A DNA stretch of 26,845 nt, from positions 1 through 26,845 of the IMG/VR virus record IMGVR_UViG_3300047409_000153. The stretch is one strand, 5' to 3'. This stretch comes from a virus. Position 1 is the first letter of the stretch. The number at the start of each line of letters is the position of its first letter. The notes beneath the pieces are model-generated. The model saw only the letters and a program-made list of their open reading frames with translations, was not told the origin of the DNA and made no database searches. Position numbers and translations under genes: made by a program. Positions 7,804-24,836 of the stretch are shown here, in pieces.

Positions 7804-8757
7804 ATGGCCGAACCCACCACCAATAACCTAGTTGCAACTACATTAAATAACTACCATAAAGAATTCGCAGATAACGTATCAAATAGTAACGCTGTAACGG
7901 CTTTACTTCGGCAAGGTGATCGTATCCGCACTATTGATGGCGGCAAAGCAATTGCTTGCCCCCTTAGTTACGCAGAAGAAACTTTTGCTTGGTACAGCGG
8001 CACGGAACTGCTTTCCCGCGCCGTGAAAGAGACGATCAGCGAGGCCGACTACGCCCCCGCGAACGCCGTTGCCTCGATCACGCTCTCCGGCCCCGACCTG
8101 GCCAAGAACAAGGGCAAGGAGCGCATCCTCAACCTGCTGGAAGGCAAGGTGGAGAACGCCCAAAGCACGATGAACAATAACGTGACCAAAGCGATTTACG
8201 GCGACGGCACGGTGGCAAAGTCGTTTGCCGGCTTAAAGGCGATGGTGACGAATGACGGCCTTGGCATCGTCGGCGGCATCGACGCCGGCACCTGGGCGTT
8301 CTGGAAAAACCAGTTCACCTCAGTCGCCCGCGCCACCGGCCTGCAATACCCGGCCTTGAAGGCGGCGATGAACGCCACCTGGATGAAGCTGATCAGGGGC
8401 ACCGAACACCCCGACCTGATCGTCGCCGATGGCGAAATCTATTCGACCTACGAGAGCGGCTTGCAGGAAAACCAGCGCTATGCCGACGCCCGGCTTGGCG
8501 CGCTCGGCTTCGAAACCCTGAAATACAAGCAGGCGGCAATCGTCTTCGACGGCGTCGCCACCGGCCTGACTGGGGCTTATTTTTTGAACACGAAATATCT
8601 CAAGTTCGAGATTTATTCGGGCCGGAATTTCGAGACGCTCGACCTGCCCGACCAGTCGCCAGACATGGATGCCATCACCAAGCACATCGCCTTCATGGGC
8701 GCGCTGACGCTGTCCAACCGCTCGATGCAGGGACGGCTGTTCGCCACCGGCACCTGA
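7804..8757 (+). CDS. Major capsid (coat) protein
   Basis: A protein of 317 residues with AGGAG 6 bases before ATG. The sequence has the look of HK97-fold coat proteins of short-tailed phages: N-arm with NSNAVTALLRQGDRIRTIDG, then the FAWYSGTELL strand, a long helix LEGKVENAQSTMNNNVTKA, the region TWMKLIRGTEHPDLIVADGE and a C-terminal strand LTLSNRSMQGRL. It follows the scaffold and precedes connector genes, the standard order. Codon use is odd: nt 7821-7990 contains only 69 G/C of 170 bases with rare codons such as CTA, TTA and AGT, then changes abruptly to the GC-rich usage of the rest of the genome. No protease or delta domain is visible. Confidence 0.85.
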   Translation: MAEPTTNNLVATTLNNYHKEFADNVSNSNAVTALLRQGDRIRTIDGGKAIACPLSYAEETFAWYSGTELLSRAVKETISEADYAPANAVASITLSGPDLAKNKGKERILNLLEGKVENAQSTMNNNVTKAIYGDGTVAKSFAGLKAMVTNDGLGIVGGIDAGTWAFWKNQFTSVARATGLQYPALKAAMNATWMKLIRGTEHPDLIVADGEIYSTYESGLQENQRYADARLGALGFETLKYKQAAIVFDGVATGLTGAYFLNTKYLKFEIYSGRNFETLDLPDQSPDMDAITKHIAFMGALTLSNRSMQGRLFATGT

Positions 8758-8839
8758 TTGCCTCGCAACCGCGTGGCAAAACGGGATCGGCGGCGGGGTT
8801 TCACTCCTTGGCTCGTCGCCGATCCTCCCCAAAGGAGGA
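8758..8839 (+). promoter_or_regulatory. Structured intergenic spacer after the capsid gene
   Basis: Three consecutive stems are present: TTGCC (8758-8762) with GGCAA (8775-8779); a perfect 9-bp stem, GGATCGGCG (8784-8792) with CGCCGATCC (8817-8825), loop 24; and TCCTCC (8823-8828) with GGAGGA (8834-8839), loop CCAAA. The last covers the ribosome binding site GGAGG of the gene at 8847 and competes with the 9-bp stem. There is no U-run, so it is not a normal terminator. It may lower expression after the coat gene or protect the coat mRNA. Confidence 0.45.
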
Positions 8840-8846
8840 CTGAAAA

Positions 8847-9416
8847 ATGCCAGAAGAAAGCCAGGCCCTTATCCGCTTCACCGCCGGCTGGGTCGAGGAA
8901 GGCGTCAGCACTGACGGCCTGCCGCGTTTCCGCGACACGGTGCGCATCATCAAGTCGGTGCCGCCCTACACCCAGGTCGAATACGAGGCCACCGAGGCCG
9001 ATTTCGACGACAATCCCATGCAATACCAGGCCTTCCTGCGCGAGCAGGGTGCCCGGCTGCAAGCCCCCGCCGAGGGCGGCTTCCCGCTGGCGCTATGGCC
9101 GGTGATCAGCCCGGCGCAGTTCAAGATGCTGACCGCCCGCGACATCACCACCATCGAGCAGCTGTCGAAGCTGCGCCCTGATACGGCGATGCCTGGCGAT
9201 CTCAAGGAACTGGTCGAACGCGCCAAGCAGATGCTGGCGCTGTCGGCCAATCTCGGCAAGTTCGAGGCGATGATCCGTGACCGCGACGGCCAGATCGCCG
9301 CGCTCACCGAGCAGGTCGTCGAACTCAGGGGCACCGTCAGCGCCCAGAACGCGCTGATCAACACCATGCGGGTGACCGCCGCGCCGATCCAGCAGCCGAT
9401 AGCGCAGGTCGCCTGA
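8847..9416 (+). CDS. Hypothetical head-region protein with C-terminal coiled coil
   Basis: A protein of 189 residues with GGAGG 8 bases before ATG. The N-terminal ~70 residues look beta-rich (VRIIKSVPPYTQVEYEATEADF). Residues ~85-130 are helical (PAQFKMLTARDITTIEQLS), and residues ~140-175 form a heptad-like coiled coil with IRDRDGQIAALTEQVVELRG. No recognised family. Position between coat and adaptor suggests a minor head or head-completion protein. The next gene starts one base after the stop, so translation is probably coupled. Confidence 0.75.
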   Translation: MPEESQALIRFTAGWVEEGVSTDGLPRFRDTVRIIKSVPPYTQVEYEATEADFDDNPMQYQAFLREQGARLQAPAEGGFPLALWPVISPAQFKMLTARDITTIEQLSKLRPDTAMPGDLKELVERAKQMLALSANLGKFEAMIRDRDGQIAALTEQVVELRGTVSAQNALINTMRVTAAPIQQPIAQVA

Positions 9417-14086: not shown

Positions 14087-14238
14087 TGACCCACCCCCCG
14101 ACCTTGCCCAGACATGCCACGCCTCGCCCCGCCTGTCCCAGCCGGGGCCTGCTGCGCCGCGCCGTTCCGCGCCCAGCCCAGCCTTGCGGTGCCAAGCCGT
14201 GCTGGACGATCTTATACGGAGATGGACAGGATGGCTAG
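14086..14238 (+). CDS. Possible 50-residue overlapping small ORF
   Basis: ATG 14086 overlaps the previous stop (TGATG) and the ORF ends at 14238, inside the next gene by 8 bases, copying the coupling pattern of the operon. The product is Pro/Arg/Cys-rich (three Cys) and is mostly encoded by a 5-base-periodic sequence, so the reading frame may be accidental. There is no known family. If not translated, this stretch would leave the only long untranslated + strand gap in the ejection block apart from the minus-strand cassette. Confidence 0.3.
   Translation: MTHPPTLPRHATPRPACPSRGLLRRAVPRPAQPCGAKPCWTILYGDGQDG
14104..14203. repeat. 100-bp NNGCC pentamer-periodic array
   Basis: The sequence can be read as about 20 five-base units ending in GCC or a close variant: TTGCC CAGAC ATGCC ACGCC TCGCC CCGCC..., continuing to CAGCC CAGCC TTGCG GTGCC AAGCC. 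One extra base and one 4-base unit shift the phase in the middle. The first two bases vary. It fills the gap between the transglycosylase-like gene and the next ejection gene. I know of similar GCC pentamer runs between genes of GC-rich alphaproteobacterial phages only from memory. The function is unknown. Confidence 0.55.
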
Positions 14239-15340
14239 GATCGTCTCAACCACCACCGCAGGCGTCCCGACCGATCCGACCGGCGGCATGACGCTCGACG
14301 CATTGATGGCCCGCCAGAAGGAACTGGCCGATCGCGCCTCGACCATCGCGGCACCCCGTAATATGCAGAGCCCCTGGCAGGGCGCTGCCATGTTGGCACA
14401 AAGTTTTGTCAACAGCCGGGAGGAAGCCCAGACCGCCGACCAGCTGACGGCGGGCCGTGACGAATTGTCCAAGCTCAAGGCTGGCATCAACCTCGACACC
14501 GGCCCGACGTCGGAGCAGATCGCCGCCGCTGACCGCATCGATCCGAACTATGCCGACGCGCTGACGGCGATGGCCTTCAAGTTGCGCGAGGAGCAGAAGA
14601 CCCGCGATGCGACGCTGGCGGCTGAACAGGCGAAGGCCGGTGCTGCTGGCGCGTGGAAGCCGACCGACATCGCGGCACGAGCCGACGACTATACCAAGGC
14701 GGCGGCCACCTACGACACTGCGGCACCCAGCTGGCAGTCGATGCAGGATGCCGCGAAGACGGCTATAGGCCAGTCCGGCCCGAATGTCGGCAGCGCCGAC
14801 CTCAATCTGGTCGTTGGCCTTGCCAAGATACTCGACCCGAACTCCGTCGTCCGCGAGGGCGAGAGCGAGAGCGTCAAGAAGACCGGCGGTGCCGCCGACT
14901 ATCTGGTCAGCTACTACAATCAGCTGGTGCAGGGTGGCGCGCTCACGGACGATATCCGCAGGGGCATTATGAACACCGGCCAGAGCCGGATGAAAGCCTA
15001 CTACGATCAGGCCAAGGTCAAGCGCGACTGGATTTCCAGCGTGGCCGCCCGCCACGGCGTCAACCCCGATGACGTCGTGCCGCCGCTGGCCGCGTTCTCG
15101 CCCTTCACGGAGGCGGCGCAACCCGACGATCCGAACAACCCCGATCCGAATAAACCGCCGCCACCGCCCGCTGAGCCGCCACGCGATCTTACCAATGCCC
15201 CTCAAGGAACGGTGCCGAGGAAGGGCGACACCATGACCGATGGCCGAGGCACGTTCGAGTACTCGGGAGCGGGTGATCCGAACGACGAAAACAACTGGAA
15301 AAAAGTCAAAGGGCCTGCGAACGGCAGGACAGGTATGTGA
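14231..15340 (+). CDS. Internal virion / DNA-ejection protein
   Basis: A protein of 369 residues. ATG 14231 is chosen because GGAG (14218-14221) sits 9 bases upstream; an ATG at 14222 would touch that site. The helical Ala/Gln-rich body includes LMARQKELADRASTIAAP and the block VVGLAKILDPNSVVREGE followed by SESV. The motif DP-x-SVVREGE is a recurrent feature in phage internal virion proteins. The C-terminal ~75 residues begin with a Pro/Asn/Asp linker and end in a small beta unit with TMTDGRGTFEYSG. The stop overlaps the next gene (TGATG). The precise role in ejection is inferred from position. Confidence 0.7.
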   Translation: MARIVSTTTAGVPTDPTGGMTLDALMARQKELADRASTIAAPRNMQSPWQGAAMLAQSFVNSREEAQTADQLTAGRDELSKLKAGINLDTGPTSEQIAAADRIDPNYADALTAMAFKLREEQKTRDATLAAEQAKAGAAGAWKPTDIAARADDYTKAAATYDTAAPSWQSMQDAAKTAIGQSGPNVGSADLNLVVGLAKILDPNSVVREGESESVKKTGGAADYLVSYYNQLVQGGALTDDIRRGIMNTGQSRMKAYYDQAKVKRDWISSVAARHGVNPDDVVPPLAAFSPFTEAAQPDDPNNPDPNKPPPPPAEPPRDLTNAPQGTVPRKGDTMTDGRGTFEYSGAGDPNDENNWKKVKGPANGRTGM

Positions 15341-17283
15341 TGGCTACTTTCGGGCAATTTGGTCAACCCAAGCCGGTAGAAGCGACGCCCGTCACCGCGA
15401 CTGGTCTGGGCAAGGCTACTGCCACGGGCACTCGCGGCGGCCTGGAAGGGCTCGTCAGCGCGCCTGGCGATCTGGTGACGTGGGAGAGCCGCAAGGCGGC
15501 CCAACTCGCCCAGTATCTGGGGGCGTCGCCGGAGACCGTCCAGTCGATCCAGAACTACTTCACGAAACCGACGCGAGGACCCGGCGTGGCGACCACGCCC
15601 GACGTGCAGGCGGCGACCGACGCTGCCGTGACGAAGGTGCTGCCAAAAAGCATCTCTGGTCCGGTGCAGGACATCACTCGGCACCAACCGCAGAACAAGG
15701 CCGAGGAGTGGGCGCAAACCGGCGGCTCCATGCTCCCTGCCGCACTGCTGCCCGGCAGCCTGGCGACGCGCGCCACCCGCGTATTGATCCCAACCGCCTC
15801 CGTCGAGGGCACCGGCCAGGTCACGCGCCAACTCGCCCCAGAGTACGAAGACGCCGCCCGCCTCGTCGCTGGCTTCCTGTCCGGGGGTGGCTTGAAAGGC
15901 GGGGCCGAGCCAGGCGGCTTCCGGTTTCGCTCCAATCTGCGCAAGCTGGCTGACGTCGGCCCGAAGGGTGTCGAGCGCGTCAAGCAGCTACTTACCGAGC
16001 AAGGCATGAGCCCTGAGGATGCCATCGCTGCTACCAAGCAGCTGGGCCCGGAGGGCCGGGTGCTAGACACCGGACCCAACGTGCGCCAGGAGGCACAACA
16101 AATTCAGGCCGCAGGCGGCGAGGGACGCGGCATCCTCGACCCGATGCTGCGCGCCCGCGAAGAGGGCAAGAACCGGCGGCTGATGGAAGATGTCGGGGCC
16201 ACGGTCGGACCACAGGAACATCCGACGGCGGTCGTGCAGGCGCTGGAAGATCGCGCCACCCGCGTCGGCCAGCAATATCCTGCGGCCAAGTCGAACCAGA
16301 CCCGGCCTGCCGGGCTTGATGGGATCGCTTACGATCTCGACGCCGAGATCGCGAATGCGCGCGGCGGCACGCAGAGCAAACTGCAAAAAATCCGCGACAT
16401 GCTCGACATCCCCGGCGGCAAGGGCAATCTCGACCCGTCGTCGGAAGGCGTGCATGCAATGCGCCAGGAAATTGACCGGATGATCAATAAGGAGAAGCCA
16501 GGATCACCCGTCTACGCGCGCCTGAACGAATACCGTCAGCGGATCGACAGTGAGTTGAAGGACATCGCGCCCGACATCAAGTCGCTCGATGCGCAATACA
16601 GCGGTATCAAGGACGAGGGTCGGGCCTTCGAAAAAGGCCAGCAGATTTACGAGAACCCGCGCGGCACTGACCCGGCGGATTTTCAGCAGACCTGGGACGC
16701 GATGACGCCAGGCGAGCAGGCGCATGTCCTAAAGGGGATGAACACCGAAACCTATCGGCAGCTTGGCATCAGTGGCAAAAACCTATCCGAGTTGCAGAAG
16801 TTGATCTCTGGCGAGGGCAAGTGGAACCAGGCCAAGGTGGCGACCGTCATCGGCGACCAGAAGGCCCAGCAGCTGATGGACGCCATCAGCAGGGAGAAGA
16901 CCTTCAACGAAAGCTACAACACGATCGTCAAAGGTTCGAAGACGGCGGAAACCAGCCGGAACCCTTCGCAGCGCAGCTTCGGTCGGGCGGCGGCGGATAC
17001 GGCCAAGGACATGCTTTTTGCCGCAGGCACTGGCGGCGGCTGGGCCGGAGCCGGAGGTGCCGCCGTGTCCAATGTCCGCCGTTTCATCGGGGAAAGGATG
17101 AAGGGTGGTGGGACCGGCAACGCGGCGGTGGATACCGACGTGGCGCGGCTGCTGTCGTCAGACAGACCGGAAGATTTGCTGAAGGCGTTGAGGATGGTCG
17201 AGCAGCACCAATCGCATTCGGTGCCGGGTGCTGTCCTGGGCGCGCTGCTGGCCCGGCAGCAGGATCAGGGGGCTCAGCGATGA
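15340..17283 (+). CDS. Large internal virion / DNA-ejection protein
   Basis: A protein of 647 residues from the ATG in the TGATG overlap (GTG at 15337 would add one). Gly/Ala-rich hydrophobic parts near residues 125-155 (GSMLPAALLPGSLATRATRV) and near 555-580 (MLFAAGTGGGWAGAGGAAVS) could enter membranes, while the centre is a long charged helical region with RQEIDRMINKEKPGSPVYARL, DSELKDIAPDIKSLDAQYSG-like heptads. This is the pattern of large podovirus ejection proteins. The last 10 bases overlap, on the opposite strand, the end of a small membrane-protein gene (17274-17363), and the end of the gene lies in a 25-bp direct repeat. Confidence 0.7.
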   Translation: MATFGQFGQPKPVEATPVTATGLGKATATGTRGGLEGLVSAPGDLVTWESRKAAQLAQYLGASPETVQSIQNYFTKPTRGPGVATTPDVQAATDAAVTKVLPKSISGPVQDITRHQPQNKAEEWAQTGGSMLPAALLPGSLATRATRVLIPTASVEGTGQVTRQLAPEYEDAARLVAGFLSGGGLKGGAEPGGFRFRSNLRKLADVGPKGVERVKQLLTEQGMSPEDAIAATKQLGPEGRVLDTGPNVRQEAQQIQAAGGEGRGILDPMLRAREEGKNRRLMEDVGATVGPQEHPTAVVQALEDRATRVGQQYPAAKSNQTRPAGLDGIAYDLDAEIANARGGTQSKLQKIRDMLDIPGGKGNLDPSSEGVHAMRQEIDRMINKEKPGSPVYARLNEYRQRIDSELKDIAPDIKSLDAQYSGIKDEGRAFEKGQQIYENPRGTDPADFQQTWDAMTPGEQAHVLKGMNTETYRQLGISGKNLSELQKLISGEGKWNQAKVATVIGDQKAQQLMDAISREKTFNESYNTIVKGSKTAETSRNPSQRSFGRAAADTAKDMLFAAGTGGGWAGAGGAAVSNVRRFIGERMKGGGTGNAAVDTDVARLLSSDRPEDLLKALRMVEQHQSHSVPGAVLGALLARQQDQGAQR

Positions 17284-17286
17284 CGC
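17262..17286. repeat. 25-bp direct repeat, copy 1
   Basis: Exactly identical to 17391-17415, with starts 129 bases apart. This copy covers the last codons of the + strand ejection gene and, on the minus strand, the last codons (RHR stop) of a small membrane-protein gene. The two copies are the conserved ends of a duplicated unit of about 130 bp whose interior has diverged. Confidence 0.9.
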
Positions 17287-17363
17287 CGACGACGCGCCCA
17301 CCAACCTTCAATAAGGCCGGAAGCTACGCCACCGACCAAGACCATAAAAATAAAAGTACCCAT
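17274..17363 (-). CDS. Tiny single-span membrane protein, distal copy
   Basis: A 29-residue ORF on the minus strand (start codon at 17363-17361, stop at 17276-17274). Residues 3-22 are a hydrophobic span, TFIFMVLVGGVASGLIEGWW, followed by the strongly basic tail ARRRRHR, so the positive-inside rule puts the C-terminus in the cytoplasm. A ribosome binding site AAGG lies 11 bases upstream, in a remnant that resembles the 3' end of the coiled-coil gene. It is a diverged tandem copy of the ORF at 17403-17489: both share the pattern hydrophobic-GL-[IL]-EGW and end in RHR. Role unknown; a holin-like, exclusion or accessory membrane peptide are options. Confidence 0.6.
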   Translation of the reverse strand: MGTFIFMVLVGGVASGLIEGWWARRRRHR

Positions 17364-17390
17364 GGAAGTTCAAACCTTTTCGTTTTGTTT

Positions 17391-17415
17391 GGATCAGGGG
17401 GCTCAGCGATGACGC
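17391..17415. repeat. 25-bp direct repeat, copy 2
   Basis: Second exact copy of 17262-17286. On the minus strand it codes for the C-terminal RHR and stop of the proximal small membrane protein. Here it no longer overlaps any + strand gene, so it probably arose by duplication of the end of the ejection gene together with the membrane-protein gene. Confidence 0.9.
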
Positions 17416-17489
17416 TCAGTCCGCTCAGCCCAGCCTTCAAGGAGGCCCATGATGACGGCTACGGCGCAGCCGAGGAGAAAAATGTGCAT
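17403..17489 (-). CDS. Tiny single-span membrane protein, proximal copy
   Basis: A 28-residue ORF on the minus strand (start codon at 17489-17487, stop at 17405-17403). Hydrophobic span HIFLLGCAVAVIMGLLEGW, then the charged tail AERTERHR. The ribosome binding site AAGG lies 8 bases before the ATG, inside the last codons of the coiled-coil gene, whose stop is 4 bases upstream; translation is probably coupled. It shares with the distal copy (17274-17363) a similar length, a GL-[IL]-EGW end to the span and the same C-terminus. It contains one Cys that the other copy lacks. It is too short for automatic gene finders. Confidence 0.65.
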   Translation of the reverse strand: MHIFLLGCAVAVIMGLLEGWAERTERHR

Positions 17490-17492
17490 GGT

Positions 17493-17723
17493 TCAAGCCT
17501 TTTCTTCGAGTTTATGGACGCGATCCTCGACGCGCCGGTTGTAGGCATGCATGTCGGTCAACTGCGCGCTCATCGAATTGATGCTGAATTCGGTCGCCTC
17601 GACGCGCTTTTCCATGCGGCGAAGGATTTCCATCATCACCGTCAAGTCCTCGCGCAGGCTGCCGATCTCGGTCAGTACACGGTCCAGCTGCCTAGCCACG
17701 AAATTCAGATCAATGTCCGCCAT
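17493..17723 (-). CDS. Coiled-coil protein MADIDLNF-type, opposite strand
   Basis: A 76-residue ORF on the minus strand; ATG at 17723 is chosen over upstream in-frame starts because the protein then begins MADIDLNFVARQLDRVL, as in small coiled-coil proteins I associate with rhizobial genomes, and because GAGGGG lies just upstream. Nearly the whole length is helical with heptads: SLREDLTVMMEILRRMEKR, ending VEDRVHKLEEKA. No membrane span. This is the only convincing stop-to-start reading in 17284-17757, a region where the + strand has no gene. It is the first gene of a three-gene minus cassette with the two tiny membrane proteins, perhaps a moron expressed separately from the late operon. Function unknown. 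Confidence 0.75.
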   Translation of the reverse strand: MADIDLNFVARQLDRVLTEIGSLREDLTVMMEILRRMEKRVEATEFSINSMSAQLTDMHAYNRRVEDRVHKLEEKA

Positions 17724-17726
17724 GCC

Positions 17727-17747
17727 CCTCACATAGATGAAGTGAGG
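17727..17747. promoter_or_regulatory. Palindrome supplying ribosome binding sites to divergent genes
   Basis: CCTCAC (17727-17732) pairs with GTGAGG (17742-17747) around 9 bases. On the + strand GTGAGG is the ribosome binding site of the gene at 17758; on the minus strand the other arm reads GTGAGG just before the ATG at 17723. The two divergent start codons are only 34 bases apart. TATAAA on the minus strand near 17750 might be a -10 element for the cassette but no -35 at the right spacing is evident. Confidence 0.45.
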
Positions 17748-17757
17748 CTTTATATCA

Positions 17758-19293
17758 ATGCCTAGCCAGCAAGATTGGATGGAAGCGCAAAAACGCCGCA
17801 TGCAGCCCGGCGGCTTCAATCCGTTCGACCGCATGCTGGCGGGGATGGACAATCCCGGCTCTGGCGGGACCGGCGACCTGACGGCGGGCGATTATACGCT
17901 GAAGGACCGCCTGACCGACCTCGTCAGCTACCTCTACGGCGGCAGCGATCCGAAGGCGGCGCAGTCTTTCGGGCGCAGTGCCTCCGACCTGGCGACGATG
18001 GTGCCCGGCCCCGGCCAGGTGCTGAGCGGCGACGAGGCTCTCAGGGCGGCCCGCAAGGGCGATTACAGCGGCGCGGCTCTGGCTGGCATAGGAGCATTGC
18101 CCGGCGGCGGTCCGGAAGCCAACGCCGGGCGCGAGGCGCTCGCAGAGGCGAAGCTGGCCGCGCCTGCGGTGCATACCGGCGGCAACCAGTCGCTGATCGA
18201 CAAGATTTTCCAGCATGCCGAGCAGCAGCGCACTCCGCAGTACCCAACGGCCACCGAGCCGGTCTTCGGACCCGCCGATCCTGAACTGACCAAGCAGCTG
18301 GTGCCGCAGCGCTCGGTGGCGGGCGAACTGCCGCCCGTGCCGACCGGCAAGCTGCCGTACAACGACCGCGCCCGCCCGATCCTCGAAAATCAGGACGCCA
18401 TCGCCAAGCAGATGGCCGACGACCTGACCAAGGCTCCCGGCCAGCCGGAGTTTTATTCTACCGGCTCGGTGCTGGCCGGCCTGGAGGACCGCGCCGGGCT
18501 CAGGCCGAAAGAGGCGCTCGATTTCATGGGCGACTGGTCGGGTCAGGGTGCCGCCACCTCGCCACGCACCAAGACGCCGCAGAACCTGCGCAACGCCTCT
18601 TACCTGATGTTCGAGCGGGCGCGCGGCAATCCGCTGACCAGCGCCAGGCGCGAGGCCGAGGGCAACCGGCCTGGCTTCGCCATGATGGGCATGCACACCG
18701 ATCTGGCCGACCAGTTCGCCAAGGGCACGGTCGATCCGTGGACCAATCCGAAACCATTCACCTTCCAGCAGAATTGGAAGGGCAATATGGCCGACGTCAC
18801 CGGAGACACCCACAACATCCGCAAGGTGCTGGACACCTACGACCGGCTCAACCCCGGCGGCCTGCCGAAAGAATGGTTCAGCAGCGAAGAGGCCTACCAG
18901 GCCTACAAGGCCAACAAGGGCTTCCCGAAGGAAGGAGCGCTGCCGGTCGGCGACATCAGGGACAGTCTCGGCAGCGGCATCGTCCCTGGTACCGGCAGGA
19001 AGGCGCAGGTCGAATATCCGATCATCACCAACCCGACCCGGCTGACCGCCGAGAAGATGGGCATCGCGCCCGCCGAGGCGCAGGAGCGGCTGTGGTTCGA
19101 GGGTGGGCCGAGAACCGGCCTGATGTCGCCTGCGGTGACCATCCCTGGCCTGCTCAACTCACAGATCGAGGCGACGGCGCGGGCTACGGGCCTGTCGCCG
19201 GATGCGATCCTGAAACTGTGGGCGCATCGCGGCATCCCGCTGGCTCAGAACGAACCTGACAACAACATGCCCGGCGCTTCGGCGGTCGGGTAA
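17758..19293 (+). CDS. Ejection-block protein of unknown function
   Basis: A protein of 511 residues; GAGG 10 bases before the ATG lies in the divergent palindrome. The N-terminal ~110 residues (DWMEAQKRRMQPGGFNPFDR, then a Gly/Ala-rich stretch AALAGIGALPGGGPEANAG) resemble the start of ejection proteins. Residues ~230-370 form a compact, conserved-looking domain: FYSTGSVLAGLEDRAGLRP, MMGMHTDLADQFAKGTVDP, and KGNMADVTGDTHNIRKVLD. Several His and Asp residues there could be catalytic but I recognise no enzyme family. It is the last gene before the fibres and may be a third ejected protein. The minus cassette separates it from the preceding late genes. Confidence 0.7.
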   Translation: MPSQQDWMEAQKRRMQPGGFNPFDRMLAGMDNPGSGGTGDLTAGDYTLKDRLTDLVSYLYGGSDPKAAQSFGRSASDLATMVPGPGQVLSGDEALRAARKGDYSGAALAGIGALPGGGPEANAGREALAEAKLAAPAVHTGGNQSLIDKIFQHAEQQRTPQYPTATEPVFGPADPELTKQLVPQRSVAGELPPVPTGKLPYNDRARPILENQDAIAKQMADDLTKAPGQPEFYSTGSVLAGLEDRAGLRPKEALDFMGDWSGQGAATSPRTKTPQNLRNASYLMFERARGNPLTSARREAEGNRPGFAMMGMHTDLADQFAKGTVDPWTNPKPFTFQQNWKGNMADVTGDTHNIRKVLDTYDRLNPGGLPKEWFSSEEAYQAYKANKGFPKEGALPVGDIRDSLGSGIVPGTGRKAQVEYPIITNPTRLTAEKMGIAPAEAQERLWFEGGPRTGLMSPAVTIPGLLNSQIEATARATGLSPDAILKLWAHRGIPLAQNEPDNNMPGASAVG

Positions 19294-19305: not shown

Positions 19306-20322
19306 ATGCCGTTCGATGGTTCTGGGAATTTCAACCGGGTGATGAACTGGGTCAACGACAGCCTGGCGAACATCAAGATCAAGTCCGACCGCCACGACCA
19401 GGAGGACGATAACTTCGCCTCCGGGCTCAGCAACGTCATCACCAAGGACGGCCAGACCCAGCCGACCAACGATATCCCCCTCAACGGGCATAAGCTGACC
19501 AATGTCGGTGTGCCGACCGGGGCGACCGACGCGGCGATCAAGAGCTATGTCGACGCCAAGCTGGATTTCTCGACAACCGGCGTTCCGGTTCCCGGCTCCG
19601 GCGCGGCGGCCTCGATCCGCTTTGCCGACGCCGACATCGGTTTTGGCACCCGCCACGTCGACACGCCTCCCGGCACGGTCAACCGCTTTGTCTGGAACGA
19701 CAAGCCCGACCTGTCCGGCACTGATGTCGCGGTGCTGACCGACGTCGGCAATTTCTCGGTCAATGGCACCTTCACCACGACCGGCGCGGTCACTTGCGGG
19801 AACATCGTCACGCCCGTGGTGAGCGTCAAACCGGCGTCGGGCAACGCCGTGGTCTACTTCTTCGCCCCTAATGGAGCGACGGCGCGCATGTACCTCTACA
19901 CCAACGCCGACGCGCAGGGGGCGGGCAACCTGACGGTCGGCGTCCAGAATTTCGCCTTTGGCGCGGACGGCGTCTTCACGGCTCCCGCCGCGCTCAAAAC
20001 CGGGGGCGCGACCTACCAGACCGATGGCAACGTCATCGGCACCGTCTGGAGCCCGTGGGGCGCGAACGATGCCATCAGCGCCATCAACCTCCGCATCGAG
20101 GCGCGCGCGGCGGCCTATGCCAACAATTGCGTCACGCAGATGCGCTCGGCAGGCTACATCGAGGTCAACCACACCACTGGCACTCAAGGGCAGCGGCTGA
20201 CCACCAGCGGCTACTACTGCGTAATGAGCATGCGAGTTGCCGGCGACCAGTACCTGTTTGGCTACAGGCAAATCCAGCATTTCGTCCCCAGCGCGGGCTG
20301 GATACAATCGACGGCATGGTGA
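19306..20322 (+). CDS. Tail fibre / spike protein
   Basis: A protein of 338 residues with AGGAGG 5 bases before ATG. The N-terminal ~85 residues are a typical virion-attachment region of podovirus tail fibres: NFNRVMNWVNDSLANIKIKS, RHDQEDDNFASGLSN, DIPLNGHKLTNVGVPTGATD then SYVDAKLD. The rest is beta-rich with Gly/Thr/Ala, and the C-terminal domain contains FFAPNGATARMYLYTNAD and YYCVMSMRVAGDQYLFGYRQ. It is likely trimeric and anchors to the tail hub. It heads the receptor-binding block. Confidence 0.85.
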   Translation: MPFDGSGNFNRVMNWVNDSLANIKIKSDRHDQEDDNFASGLSNVITKDGQTQPTNDIPLNGHKLTNVGVPTGATDAAIKSYVDAKLDFSTTGVPVPGSGAAASIRFADADIGFGTRHVDTPPGTVNRFVWNDKPDLSGTDVAVLTDVGNFSVNGTFTTTGAVTCGNIVTPVVSVKPASGNAVVYFFAPNGATARMYLYTNADAQGAGNLTVGVQNFAFGADGVFTAPAALKTGGATYQTDGNVIGTVWSPWGANDAISAINLRIEARAAAYANNCVTQMRSAGYIEVNHTTGTQGQRLTTSGYYCVMSMRVAGDQYLFGYRQIQHFVPSAGWIQSTAW

Positions 20323-20713: not shown

Positions 20714-21342
20714 TCGACCGCACCATCGTCGTCAATCCGATCGAGCCGGCGCTGTTGTCGGCGCGGGTGGCGCTCGGCGTCCCGTTCGATCTGCACCTGA
20801 GCTTCCGCAGGCAGGACGGGCTGACCCCGGTCGATCCCAACACGCTGATGTCGCAGCTGGCGCTGCTGCCGCGCTCGGCCCGCCAGGTGTGGGCCTATGA
20901 CGTGACCACCTCGAACGTCTACGAGGGCACGGCATCCGTCTCGGTGCCTGGCACGGTGCTGGTCGATCCCAACGGCTACAACCTCGAACTCTACCAGCGC
21001 CGCACCGCCCTCAACCCCACCGATCCGCCGGTCGCGGTCGGTCTGCTGGCCAAGGGTGTGCTTAGGCTGGAGGGCTCGGCCTACATGCAGATGGGTCCGC
21101 TGGGAATGGTCAACATCCCTGTCGTGGTCGGCCCTCCCGGCCCTCCCGGCCTGTCCGTCACCGGCCCTGCCGGCCCAGTAGGCAGCCCCGGTGCATCCGG
21201 CCAGCGCGGTTCGATCTGGACCACGGGCGTTGGCTCGCCGGGCACGGTCGGCACCGAACTGACCGGCGACATGTATCTCGACGAGAGCAATGGCGACGTC
21301 TGGCGCTTCGACGGCGCGACGTGGATGCGTGGCACTTTCTGA
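20710..21342 (+). CDS. Tail protein with short collagen-like tract
   Basis: A protein of 210 residues starting at the ATG that overlaps the preceding stop. The N-terminal ~135 residues are a beta-sandwich-like domain: PFDLHLSFRRQDGLTPVDP, RQVWAYDVTTSNVYEGTASV. Residues ~143-170 carry Gly-X-Y repeats (GPPGPPGLSVTGPAGPVGSP), and the end has GDMYLDESNGDVWRFDGATW, a motif common in modular tail proteins. Collagen-like triplets usually make a trimeric stalk. It is coupled to the long collagen-like fibre by TGATG. Confidence 0.75.
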   Translation: MIDRTIVVNPIEPALLSARVALGVPFDLHLSFRRQDGLTPVDPNTLMSQLALLPRSARQVWAYDVTTSNVYEGTASVSVPGTVLVDPNGYNLELYQRRTALNPTDPPVAVGLLAKGVLRLEGSAYMQMGPLGMVNIPVVVGPPGPPGLSVTGPAGPVGSPGASGQRGSIWTTGVGSPGTVGTELTGDMYLDESNGDVWRFDGATWMRGTF

Positions 21343-23597
21343 TGGCTTGGAACCCGGAAACCAACATCAAGGGTCCAGCTGGCCCTGCAGGACCCACCGG
21401 CCCCGCCGGAGCCGCCAGCACGGTGCCGGGGCCGCAGGGGCCTATTGGACCGGCTGGCTCGACCGGCCCACAGGGGCCGGCGGGTGCCACTGGCAGTACC
21501 GGCAGCACCGGCAGCCAAGGTCCGCCGGGTCAGGGCGTCCCGACCGGCGGCACCACCGGGCAGGTGCTGACCAAGGTCAACGCCACCGACTACAACACCA
21601 ACTGGCAGACGCCATCCGGTGGCGGCGGTGGCACACCCAGCACCGCCAACCCGATCATGGATGGCACTGCCGCGCCGGGTGTCGCCACGCCGTATTCGCG
21701 CGAGGACCACGTCCATCCTTCGGACACGTCGCGGGTCGGCAAGGCTGGCGACACCATGACCGGCAAGTTGACGTTACCGGTGGGAACGACTGCCAGCGCG
21801 TCGCTCAACATTCCGTCAGGTGTTGCGCCGACGACGCCAACAACGGGCGACATATGGGCGACATCCACAAATCTGCTGTACCGCGTGTCAGGGTCGTCAT
21901 TGACCGTGATGAACTTGGAGGGCGCGCAGCAGGTTGGTGGCGTCAAGACGTTCAACGCCAAGCCCCTCTTCCCCGGTTCATCGTCCAGCACGGCGTCGAT
22001 CAACATCTCGCAAGGCACGGTGCCGACAACACCAACCAACGGCGATGTCTGGACTACCAACACAGGCATTTTTGTCCGCGTCAATGGCGCGACAGTCGGC
22101 CCGCTGATCGATGCGACCGGAAACGTGCCGCCGGCCACGGTCGCGCCACTGATGAACGGCACGGCAGCGGTGGGGGCGGTCGCCAAGTATGCCAAGGAAG
22201 ATCATATTCATCCATCCGACACGGCCAAGCTCGATGTAGCATCGGCCACGCCGCCGGCCACCGTCGCGCCGTTGATGGACGGCACCGCCGCCGTCGGCAC
22301 CACCACCAAATACGCGCGTGAAGACCACAAGCACCCGACCGACACATCGAGGGAACCTTCACTGCCGGCGGGCGGCACGACCTCCAACTATTTGCGTGGC
22401 GACAAGACGTGGGCAGTCCCAGCCGGCGGCGGGGCAGCCACCAGCATCTCCGATACCCCGCCGGGATCGCCTGTCGCCGGGCAACTTTGGTTCGAGAGCG
22501 ACACCGGCAACACCTTCATTTACTACACCGACGCTGACAGCAGTCAGTGGGTGCAGGTCTCCGCCGCGCCGTCGACATCGGCGTCCGCCGGGCTGACCGC
22601 CGAGACGCGAAATAGACTTGTGAATGGCGCGATGCAGATCAGTCAGGAAAACGGCACGAACCCCGCGACGACCAATGCTTACTTCCTAGCCGATCAGTGG
22701 GAGACGAACTTTGTGACAACTGGGTCGGTTCTATGCGGGTTAAGCGCTGTAGCCACCCCATATGGTTCGGTCTGGCGAGGTCTGCTTTCTGTTGCCACTG
22801 CGGATACGTCTATCGCTGCTTCGGAGTTCGTCTCTGTCCGACAGAGGATCGAGGGCAAAAGGATTGCCGATTTTCAATGGGGAACCGCCGCCGCCAAGCA
22901 GGCCGTGCTGCGTTTTGGTTTTAATGGACCGGCGGGTACTTATTCCGTAGCTATTATAAATGGCGCGGGTAACCGGTCTTATGTAGCTAACTTTACTATT
23001 CCCGATGCGGTTGACGCTTACTATACCATAGTCATTCCGGGCGATACGACAGGGACATGGCCCAAGGATAACTCCTATGCGATGTCGCTGAATTTCACCA
23101 TCTCCTGCGGGTCGACCAATCAGACAGCGCCGGGTGCATGGCTAGCCGGCGTCGCTGTTGCCGGGACTGGCATTTCCAATGGTATGGGGGTGGTTGGAAA
23201 GAACTTCTACCTTTACGATGTCGGCCTCTATCTCGACCCCTTAGCGACCGGCGTTGCCCCGGCATGGACGATGCCCGACGAGGCCGGGGAATTGCTGGCG
23301 TGTCAGAGGTATTGGCGGGGCAACCCCATGTCGATGGGGCAGTGGCTTAATCCGTCAGTATTTAGATCGATAGCACCAATTGTCCCGCCAATGCGTACAG
23401 CACCTGCACTAGCGGTGAAGGTCGCGACTGGCATACTCGAAGATTTAGGCGTTCAATTTTACAATATCTCAGCGCCATCGGCAGCATCGTTCAGTGGTGT
23501 TGATGGCCTTCATTTGGGTATAACGCCTTCAGGAGGTGTTGGTGGGCATATCGGCTGCCTCTCTCCTAATTGCATCATACTGAACGCGAGGATGTAG
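21342..23597 (+). CDS. Long collagen-like tail fibre / adhesin
   Basis: A protein of 751 residues from ATG 21342. Order of parts: Gly-X-Y collagen-like tract (residues ~7-70, GPAGPAGPTGPAG onward); the linker GQVLTKVNATDYNTNW; three copies of a module with DGTAA or NGTAA followed by [RK]EDHxHPxD (HxH at residues 123-125, 288-290 and 329-331); two copies of a PTTPTxGDxWxT module; then a C-terminal receptor-binding-like domain starting SDTPPGSPVAGQLWFESDT and RNRLVNGAMQISQENG. The last domain is paralogous to most of the next gene. Base composition drops in 22921-23040 (54 G/C of 120) and again near the end, suggesting exchange of receptor-binding parts. Confidence 0.8.
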   Translation: MAWNPETNIKGPAGPAGPTGPAGAASTVPGPQGPIGPAGSTGPQGPAGATGSTGSTGSQGPPGQGVPTGGTTGQVLTKVNATDYNTNWQTPSGGGGGTPSTANPIMDGTAAPGVATPYSREDHVHPSDTSRVGKAGDTMTGKLTLPVGTTASASLNIPSGVAPTTPTTGDIWATSTNLLYRVSGSSLTVMNLEGAQQVGGVKTFNAKPLFPGSSSSTASINISQGTVPTTPTNGDVWTTNTGIFVRVNGATVGPLIDATGNVPPATVAPLMNGTAAVGAVAKYAKEDHIHPSDTAKLDVASATPPATVAPLMDGTAAVGTTTKYAREDHKHPTDTSREPSLPAGGTTSNYLRGDKTWAVPAGGGAATSISDTPPGSPVAGQLWFESDTGNTFIYYTDADSSQWVQVSAAPSTSASAGLTAETRNRLVNGAMQISQENGTNPATTNAYFLADQWETNFVTTGSVLCGLSAVATPYGSVWRGLLSVATADTSIAASEFVSVRQRIEGKRIADFQWGTAAAKQAVLRFGFNGPAGTYSVAIINGAGNRSYVANFTIPDAVDAYYTIVIPGDTTGTWPKDNSYAMSLNFTISCGSTNQTAPGAWLAGVAVAGTGISNGMGVVGKNFYLYDVGLYLDPLATGVAPAWTMPDEAGELLACQRYWRGNPMSMGQWLNPSVFRSIAPIVPPMRTAPALAVKVATGILEDLGVQFYNISAPSAASFSGVDGLHLGITPSGGVGGHIGCLSPNCIILNARM

Positions 23598-23600
23598 AGG

Positions 23601-24836
23601 GTGAGCTTCAATTTTCCCAACAGCCCCGTCGACGGCACCGTCTTCACCCCCTCCGGTGGTCCGACCTATACTTTTTCGGGCGGCGTCTGGAAGCTGTCTG
23701 GCGGCGGTTCCGGCTTCGTCGTCGTTTCCGATACGCCGCCAGCGACGCCGTTTCCGGGGATGCTGTGGTGGGAGAGCGACACTGGCGCGCTGTGGTTCTG
23801 GTACGTCGACGCCAATTCGTCGCAGTGGGTGCAGATCAACTTCACCCCGACCGGCGTCGCCACCGCCGAGACGCGAAATCGACTGGTGAATGGTGCCATG
23901 CAGATTTCACAGGAGAACGGCAATACCTCTGTCGGCATGGCAACCGGGCCAGTTATCGTGGATCAGTGGTACACGGCGAACAGCACCGCAACAGTGGCTG
24001 CGGCGGTGCAGCGGGTTCAGGTTACGACACCAAAAGGGTCCGTCAACCGCATTCGCGTGACCGTCAATACCGGTGCCGCTGTCTCCTCCGGGCTGTTTGC
24101 CCTTTCGCAGCAGATTGAGGGCATTCGAGTTGCCGATTTCGGTTGGGGGACGGCAACGGCCAAGCAGGTGATCGTGCGTTTTGGCTTCAAGGCTCCGGCG
24201 GGCACCTACACCTTTAAAATTGTCAACACAGCCGCCAATCGAACCTATCTGGCTGCCTTCACCATTGCCGCCGGGCAGGCCAATGCCGACACCGAACAGG
24301 TTCTGGTCATCTCCGGCGACGTGACCGGGGCGTGGCCTGTGGATAACACGGCGAGTTTTCAGATGCTCGTCGTATTGGCAGCGGGCACGACTGCGGGGGT
24401 GGCGGGCTGGCAGGCCGGAAATATCGGCTACCTGCCGGGCCAGAGCAACGGCGGCGCGACGACCGGCAATATCTTCGAACTGTTCGACGTTGGCCTCTAT
24501 CTCGACCCGCTCGCCACCGGGGTGCCGCCAGCGTGGACGATGCCCGACGAGGCGAACGAACTGGCGGCGTGTATGCGGTACTGGCAGCTGATGCATATGG
24601 ATATGGTGACCTACGCTCCTATCGCCGGCACTTACTTTGGGGTGCAATATCCGTTTACGGTTCGAATGCGGACGGTTCCTGCGCTCTCAACTGCTACGGA
24701 CGGCACGGGGACCAATGCGTCTTCGGCACAATTCGACCAAGCGACAATCATCAAATGCCGCGCCCTGTTGCAGACCACTGCGATAGGGACGTCTTCCATC
24801 ACCAACCGTAGCGGTATAGCCAACGCGAGGATGTGA
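23601..24836 (+). CDS. Receptor-binding tail protein, paralogue of upstream fibre C-terminus
   Basis: A protein of 411 residues with GTG start at 23601; ribosome binding site GAGG (23588-23591) lies in the last codons of the upstream gene, 9 bases away. The N-terminus SFNFPNSPVDGTVFTPSGG and VWKLSGGG is a short attachment module. From SDTPPATPFPGMLWWESDT onward it matches the C-terminal part of 21342-23597 (NRLVNGAMQISQEN, QIEGIRVADFGWGTATAKQ, DVGLYLDPLATGVPPAWTMP) and both end in NARM. A duplicated adhesin carried on a shorter stalk is the most likely interpretation. Confidence 0.8.
   Translation: MSFNFPNSPVDGTVFTPSGGPTYTFSGGVWKLSGGGSGFVVVSDTPPATPFPGMLWWESDTGALWFWYVDANSSQWVQINFTPTGVATAETRNRLVNGAMQISQENGNTSVGMATGPVIVDQWYTANSTATVAAAVQRVQVTTPKGSVNRIRVTVNTGAAVSSGLFALSQQIEGIRVADFGWGTATAKQVIVRFGFKAPAGTYTFKIVNTAANRTYLAAFTIAAGQANADTEQVLVISGDVTGAWPVDNTASFQMLVVLAAGTTAGVAGWQAGNIGYLPGQSNGGATTGNIFELFDVGLYLDPLATGVPPAWTMPDEANELAACMRYWQLMHMDMVTYAPIAGTYFGVQYPFTVRMRTVPALSTATDGTGTNASSAQFDQATIIKCRALLQTTAIGTSSITNRSGIANARM

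Follow-up and report, generated by a model that had tools for sequence, protein, structure and literature searches.

A minus-strand unit of micro-membrane protein genes beside a presumed ejection gene of a soil phage as a possible superinfection-exclusion locus

In every case examined, the superinfection-exclusion gene sieA of phage P22 was flanked by genes 16 and 9; it occurs in three types that are about 25% identical, its product SieA (162–164 aa) has three transmembrane (TM) segments, and escape mutants map to the ejection genes 16 and 20 (PMC10883804). The minus-strand unit described here resembles P22 sieA in several respects: an accessory gene with a membrane product lies between the last (here presumed) ejection gene and a tail gene, it is present only in some relatives, and strongly diverged types occupy the same site. 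P22 sieA has its own promoter; for the present unit clear promoters were found in relatives and a weak candidate in the DNA under study. In contrast to SieA, the present unit encodes single-TM peptides of 28–29 aa plus a coiled-coil protein, with no sequence similarity found to SieA, and a search for homology of its products to known exclusion proteins found none. The gp15 protein of phage HK97 is a superinfection-exclusion moron. By its description gp15 is likewise a small membrane moron protein encoded among late genes, but it is the product of one larger gene, without tandem micro-peptides and without a coiled coil.

The DNA analyzed is a 26,845-base IMG/VR piece (26.8 kb) of a tailed soil phage, which we refer to as the window. 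Tailed-phage genes were recognized for the terminase, the portal protein (phrog_12082) and the major head protein (phrog_9953), and the late genes run on the plus strand through to the tail fibres. The stop of p648 and the start of p511 are separated by 474 bases, and the minus strand there holds three closely spaced ORFs (Table 1). The original prediction of a minus-strand cassette at 17274–17723, between the p648 stop (17283) and the p511 start (17758), was confirmed in its coordinates and motifs. The position of the unit between p648 and p511/p338 is syntenic across relatives; the ejection role of p648 is presumed. The predicted structure of p648 is all-helical at low confidence and its fold search gave no match and was uninformative. 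A single-sequence scan with p648 found nothing, and the members of a five-member profile were too diverged for scanning. Two further observations concern the neighbouring late genes. Two successive tail-fibre genes at window positions 21321–24836 both match phrog_4492 and phrog_9729, the first of them with collagen-like GPAGPTGP repeats. In p408 (window 14114–15340) and its homologues in three relatives (L031, L043 and L079) a short N-terminal segment is kept while the rest varies; in the relatives this segment reads Y.DP.KA[ML][TS][LI]KAL and it persists across very diverged genomes.

Table 1. Features of the window (by position) and of the corresponding junction in relatives (L numbers, by sequence)
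Feature	Position or sequence	Strand	Description
p648	15337..17283	+	presumed ejection protein, phrog_5880 (function unknown); convergent with the minus-strand unit
p511	17758..19293	+	next late gene; minus-strand promoter region at its 5′ end
p338	19306..20322	+	virion/tail-fibre-type gene, phrog_13989; N-terminal domain is the synteny anchor
cc	17493..17723	-	76 aa, ATG start; soluble coiled-coil protein; first gene of the unit
m1	17403..17489	-	28 aa, ATG start; single-span membrane peptide; starts 3 nt past the cc stop
m2	17274..17363	-	29 aa, ATG start; single-span membrane peptide, m1 homologue; 3′ end overlaps the p648 stop
25-nt exact direct repeat, copy 1	17262..17286		end of p648 and m2
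25-nt exact direct repeat, copy 2	17391..17415		end of m1
Candidate extended -10 TGATATAAA	17749..17757	-	ends 25 nt before the cc start; weak, no good -35
Dyad CCTCAC-9-GTGAGG	17727..17747	-	covers part of the cc Shine–Dalgarno site
L105 promoter	TTGAAG-17-TATATG	-	-10 ends 24 nt before the start
L111 promoter	TTGAAT-17-TATATG	-	-10 ends 24 nt before the start
L019 promoter	TTGCAG-17-TATATT	-	-10 ends 24 nt before the start
L162 promoter	TTTAAG-16-TATAAT	-	-10 ends 24 nt before the start
L119 and L137 promoter	TTGTCA-17-TATATA	-	-10 ends 30 nt before the start
L105/L110 micro-membrane gene	MATCLLIICFLFAAHDSMKKKRGEKD	-	3′ end of the p648 equivalent
L111 micro-membrane gene	MLYALFWMFLGLAHWYGDRRKGKR	-	3′ end of the p648 equivalent
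L119 micro-membrane gene	MSELFTVPNLIAVLGIYVLLIMLEVGAKRRR	-	3′ end of the p648 equivalent
L137 two tandem micro-membrane genes	MITGFSIFCIAMLVLGAFEKAGW then MSELFTFPNLIALVGVYALLILFDVMRAKSRGRRPDRW	-	3′ end of the p648 equivalent
L096 micro-membrane gene	MCVAIFAAIGLILIGQIITADI	-	3′ end of the p648 equivalent
L019 micro-membrane gene	MLYSLLLVACALAGGGLAIGVQVAWIMLFCEN	-	3′ end of the p648 equivalent
L120 probable micro-membrane gene	MEWLFLAAVVVFFMWLAYTSG	-	no Shine–Dalgarno site seen

The three ORFs, named cc, m1 and m2, are very likely real genes. In cc, hydrophobic residues occupy 18 of the 22 heptad a/d positions, a value reached by none of 5000 shuffles; the AlphaFold model is a single helix over residues 6–75 (pLDDT 96), and codon usage in the minus frame is that of the late genes. 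m1 and m2, with m2 starting 39 nt after m1, are too short for a codon-usage test. Each bears, as described before, one hydrophobic span, the motif GL[LI]EGW, an RHR end and an AAGG; the last lies 8 or 11 nt before the ATG. Kyte–Doolittle hydropathy in a 17-residue window reaches 2.43 for m1 and 2.08 for m2, and the m1 value together with a Shine–Dalgarno site was matched in 0 of 300 shuffles of the gap. The two peptides share 12 of 28 residues (50 of 84 nt) and find each other with phmmer among ~28,600 ORFs (E 0.005–0.012). Both copies retain their length, topology, start, Shine–Dalgarno site and stop, in line with the original prediction, which had also proposed a dN/dS comparison: the ratio is 0.58–0.72 over 24–28 codons, too short a stretch for this value to decide.

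A point that is new to this analysis is the 25-nt exact direct repeat, the longest in the window, which contains the last codons of p648, m1 and m2. Since GAAAAGGYTTGAAC moreover precedes both the m1 and the m2 start, the two short-ORF units are copies; their ends are identical and their bodies ~60% identical. As read from the sequence, this pattern fits an in-place tandem duplication followed by divergence, or equally a recombination at the p648 end between phages with different alleles.

No homologue of cc, m1 or m2 was detectable in the collections searched. For cc, phages, viral contigs and the PDB yielded none, plasmids gave only chance coiled-coil matches, and 385 alphaproteobacterial genomes gave three weak matches, all inside ORFs of 345–394 aa. 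A possible link to a rhizobial family with the motif DIDLNF.ARQ was dropped after the pattern search came back empty, and PHROG, Pfam, NCBIfam and PADLOC hold no family for m1 or m2. Because these searches gave nothing, the junction was compared by synteny: a scan with the head protein yielded 80 loci, and alignment scans with the p338 N-terminal domain yielded 79 viral loci and, in bacterial genomes, a further 80, nearly all alphaproteobacterial. The closest relatives spanning the site are at most 60% identical (in part of p511, its N-terminus in L105 being 60% identical) and at most 37% identical in p648. A nearer relative, L002, has a portal 98% identical to that of the window, but its sequence stops short of the junction.

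The strongest evidence comes from position. Minus-strand micro-membrane genes sit at the same junction in several of these relatives and end at the stop of the p648 equivalent. A basic tail is carried by m1, m2 and five of the relatives' peptides, from which an N-out/C-in orientation is predicted by the positive-inside rule. Longer TM ORFs occupy the minus strand of the junction in L129, L133 and L162, and in 30 of 65 viral loci, about half, no gap of at least 70 nt lies nearby, so that the site is empty. Most relatives with a unit carry a single micro gene and no coiled coil, and no cc-like gene was found in any of them; the predicted grouping of a coiled coil with a peptide pair is thus not conserved. 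In an alignment of L105 with L111, identity is 77% over the 60 nt upstream and 72% over the 60 nt downstream, against 45% with gaps in the ORF body: here the reading frame has been swapped or has diversified between fixed flanks. L119 looks like L137 minus the first tandem micro-gene, the second occupying the same GTG start. The cultured Rhizobium phage RHph_I3_18 resembles the present unit in having minus-strand envelope genes between a phrog_5880 gene and a tail-fibre gene: the annotated EVC14_017, which encodes a 96-aa lipoprotein (lipobox LSGC), and a TM ORF that follows it with an overlapping TGATG. It differs in that these are a lipoprotein and a TM ORF, not a coiled coil and micro-peptides. 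Among NCBIfam families, EVC14_017 matches best to the IncN-plasmid entry-exclusion lipoprotein EexN (E 0.0017; 18.3 bits, below the cut-off of 33), a match that we treat as a lead only.

We then compared strands and compositions: among the 21 junction gaps, 7 contain a minus-strand ORF that is preceded by a Shine–Dalgarno site and has a hydropathy of at least 1.8, none contains such an ORF on the plus strand, and dinucleotide shuffles predict 0.10. The gaps were picked after inspection, so that this comparison is controlled for strand and composition but is not blind, and one of the seven positive gaps is the lipoprotein signal of RHph_I3_18. In a per-gene control over 851 plus-strand ORF ends, 10 minus-strand micro-TM ORFs were found, four of them at the junction under study; this is a lower bound because the filter missed L105, L111, L120 and L137 (frame, Shine–Dalgarno site or threshold).

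Minus-strand promoters in the relatives are significant over 12 loci (Fisher p 1.3e-6). L105/L111 and L119/L137 are homologous pairs, and when one of each is dropped p becomes ~2e-5 (calculated by hand from the same p values). On the plus strand, promoter scores at this site do not rise above chance level. For the window, the automated promoter pair was not significant (p 0.19), and the candidate extended -10 has a spacing to the start like that of the -10 boxes of the relatives. The dyad before cc is a possible operator or leader hairpin by its sequence; the folding energy of the cc leader is not unusual. In L096 (5975–5995, minus strand) an inverted repeat, TTTAAACCT-CCA-AGGTTTAAA, lies upstream of the micro-ORF and overlaps the candidate promoter; its operator-like form hints that the unit may be under repressor control. 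At the same junction the unit is present in some relatives and absent from others, as is typical of morons; the term ‘moron-like’ is used loosely here because no terminator of its own was found (no terminator-like site lies within 17000–18100).

These data bear on whether the short ORFs could be chance products or relics, untranslated leftovers of a recombination junction. A dN/dS near 0.6–0.7, the recombination evident from the 25-nt repeat and the failure of any close relative to keep the same sequence would fit such an origin, which we nevertheless rate as scarcely probable given the strand bias, the shuffles and the promoters across independent relatives, and the intactness of both copies. 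The proposal of real products under selection is supported, chiefly by minus-strand micro-membrane genes that recur with promoters of their own at this junction in relatives, and not by dN/dS.

Among the functions that had been proposed, a holin/pinholin-like role is disfavoured. In this scheme m1 and m2 would form a pinholin/antiholin-like pair controlling lysis, with cc as a modulator, which agrees with the tandem arrangement of short single-TM peptides and with the lack of a clear holin elsewhere in the window, an incomplete record. However, such a pair would be expected in a lysis cassette on the late strand, whereas the unit is opposite the late operon and has its own promoter in relatives, which often carry one peptide or none. 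Furthermore, the two relatives checked have plus-strand endolysins elsewhere, which argues against a lysis role: a GH108 endolysin in RHph_I3_18 and, in L119's phage, one with a weak GH19 match below the cut-off, beside a TM ORF. We regard the probability of lysis control as low.

For the toxic pair, no positive evidence was found. With 28–29 aa, a single TM span, charged tails and tandem arrangement, m1 and m2 resemble the type I toxins Ldr, Ibs and TisB in form, these being very short single-TM peptides that sometimes occur in tandem; the peptides would depolarize the membrane and be silenced by an antisense RNA, for example the plus-strand late transcript. However, the relatives' promoters predict short 5′ leaders (about 17–24 nt) with a plain Shine–Dalgarno site, plus-strand promoter scores do not exceed chance and there is no Rfam match. 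By comparison with type I toxins, neither an antisense RNA nor a long leader is in evidence, and the genes lie at a phage late-gene junction; we consider a toxin pair most improbable.

Superinfection exclusion fits best among the proposed functions, on account of the site, the orientation, the envelope products, the exchange of reading frames and the parallel to sieA. It leads because position, envelope products, the relatives' promoters, presence and absence, and divergence all parallel P22 sieA, and we tentatively favour, at somewhat less than an even chance, a moron-like, rapidly exchanged minus-strand exclusion locus with sieA-like placement. The same positional, promoter and exchange evidence would also suit a moron-like unit with another envelope function, in which the peptides bind an inner-membrane enzyme, a transporter or a stress sensor of the host and alter the physiology of the lysogen or infected cell without excluding phages. 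Most of the bacterial micro-membrane proteins known so far act as regulators of larger membrane proteins, and the site holds widely differing products (micro TM, two-TM, lipoprotein), both of which count for this alternative. It leaves unexplained the placement beside ejection genes and the fast exchange of the ORF bodies, and we judge it unlikely while granting it appreciable weight.

Under superinfection exclusion, a promoter of its own would drive the unit, uncoupled from the plus-strand late operon, presumably also in the window's phage. Its products would be a cytoplasmic coiled coil and inner-membrane micro-peptides, the latter predicted to be N-out with their basic tails on the cytoplasmic side. 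Residing in the inner membrane of a cell that is infected or lysogenic, the peptides could keep the DNA-delivery conduit of related incoming phages from assembling or opening properly, and cc may, as a guess, be a cytoplasmic partner of the basic tails. An integrase is encoded by L119's phage, by RHph_I3_18 and by the records of L162 and L169; in several other bearers no integrase was recognized. A more specific version, which we consider doubtful, is a hypervariable exclusion locus: opposite the ejection gene's 3′ end, the promoter and ribosome site of the minus strand would stay fixed while unrelated membrane peptides of 21–38 residues are swapped in, sometimes as pairs and here together with a coiled coil; each would match a particular ejection apparatus, so that ejection gene and blocker would form a linked specificity pair. 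If the peptides do exclude phages, the specificity of exclusion would be tied to the adjacent ejection gene, and to our knowledge they would be among the smallest exclusion proteins. If the function differs, the site still predicts where new envelope-acting micro-proteins may be found. Because most annotation passes over genes of fewer than 40 codons, the site has for the most part escaped notice in these phages, a group common in soil metagenomes.

The synteny scans yielded several further observations. Minus-strand ORFs with DFG[SR]P[NY]...VLV or VVV (L029, L046, L059 and others) were set aside as the antisense shadow of a small plus-strand gene (...QFGLPKS...). A distant alphaproteobacterial prophage from roe deer cecum (L205) bears, opposite the late genes and near the corresponding junction, a minus-strand outer-membrane beta-barrel gene (8437–9063; PF13505, E 3e-20), a candidate for Lom-like lysogenic conversion. 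In distant gut and rumen prophages (L186, L187, L190, L191, L195, L221 and L222) short plus-strand TM genes lie ~0.5 kb upstream of the p338-type gene, and these (MLKKYRLAIFFVGLIILSIVSLLKPEAAENVARAFLLLWGMG; MIIRIVGLVLILLLCYLLGRSHSQTQ...) look like a holin and a small i-spanin. A recurring plus-strand gene of ~80 aa is found ~2 kb upstream of the p338-type gene in L180, L183, L184, L188, L189, L202, L215 and L233; with its motif MLKA.[AES]DRII[VI]...V.FH.FDELPLP....V.REKS.LGIY it resembles, by eye, a GroES-like chaperonin.
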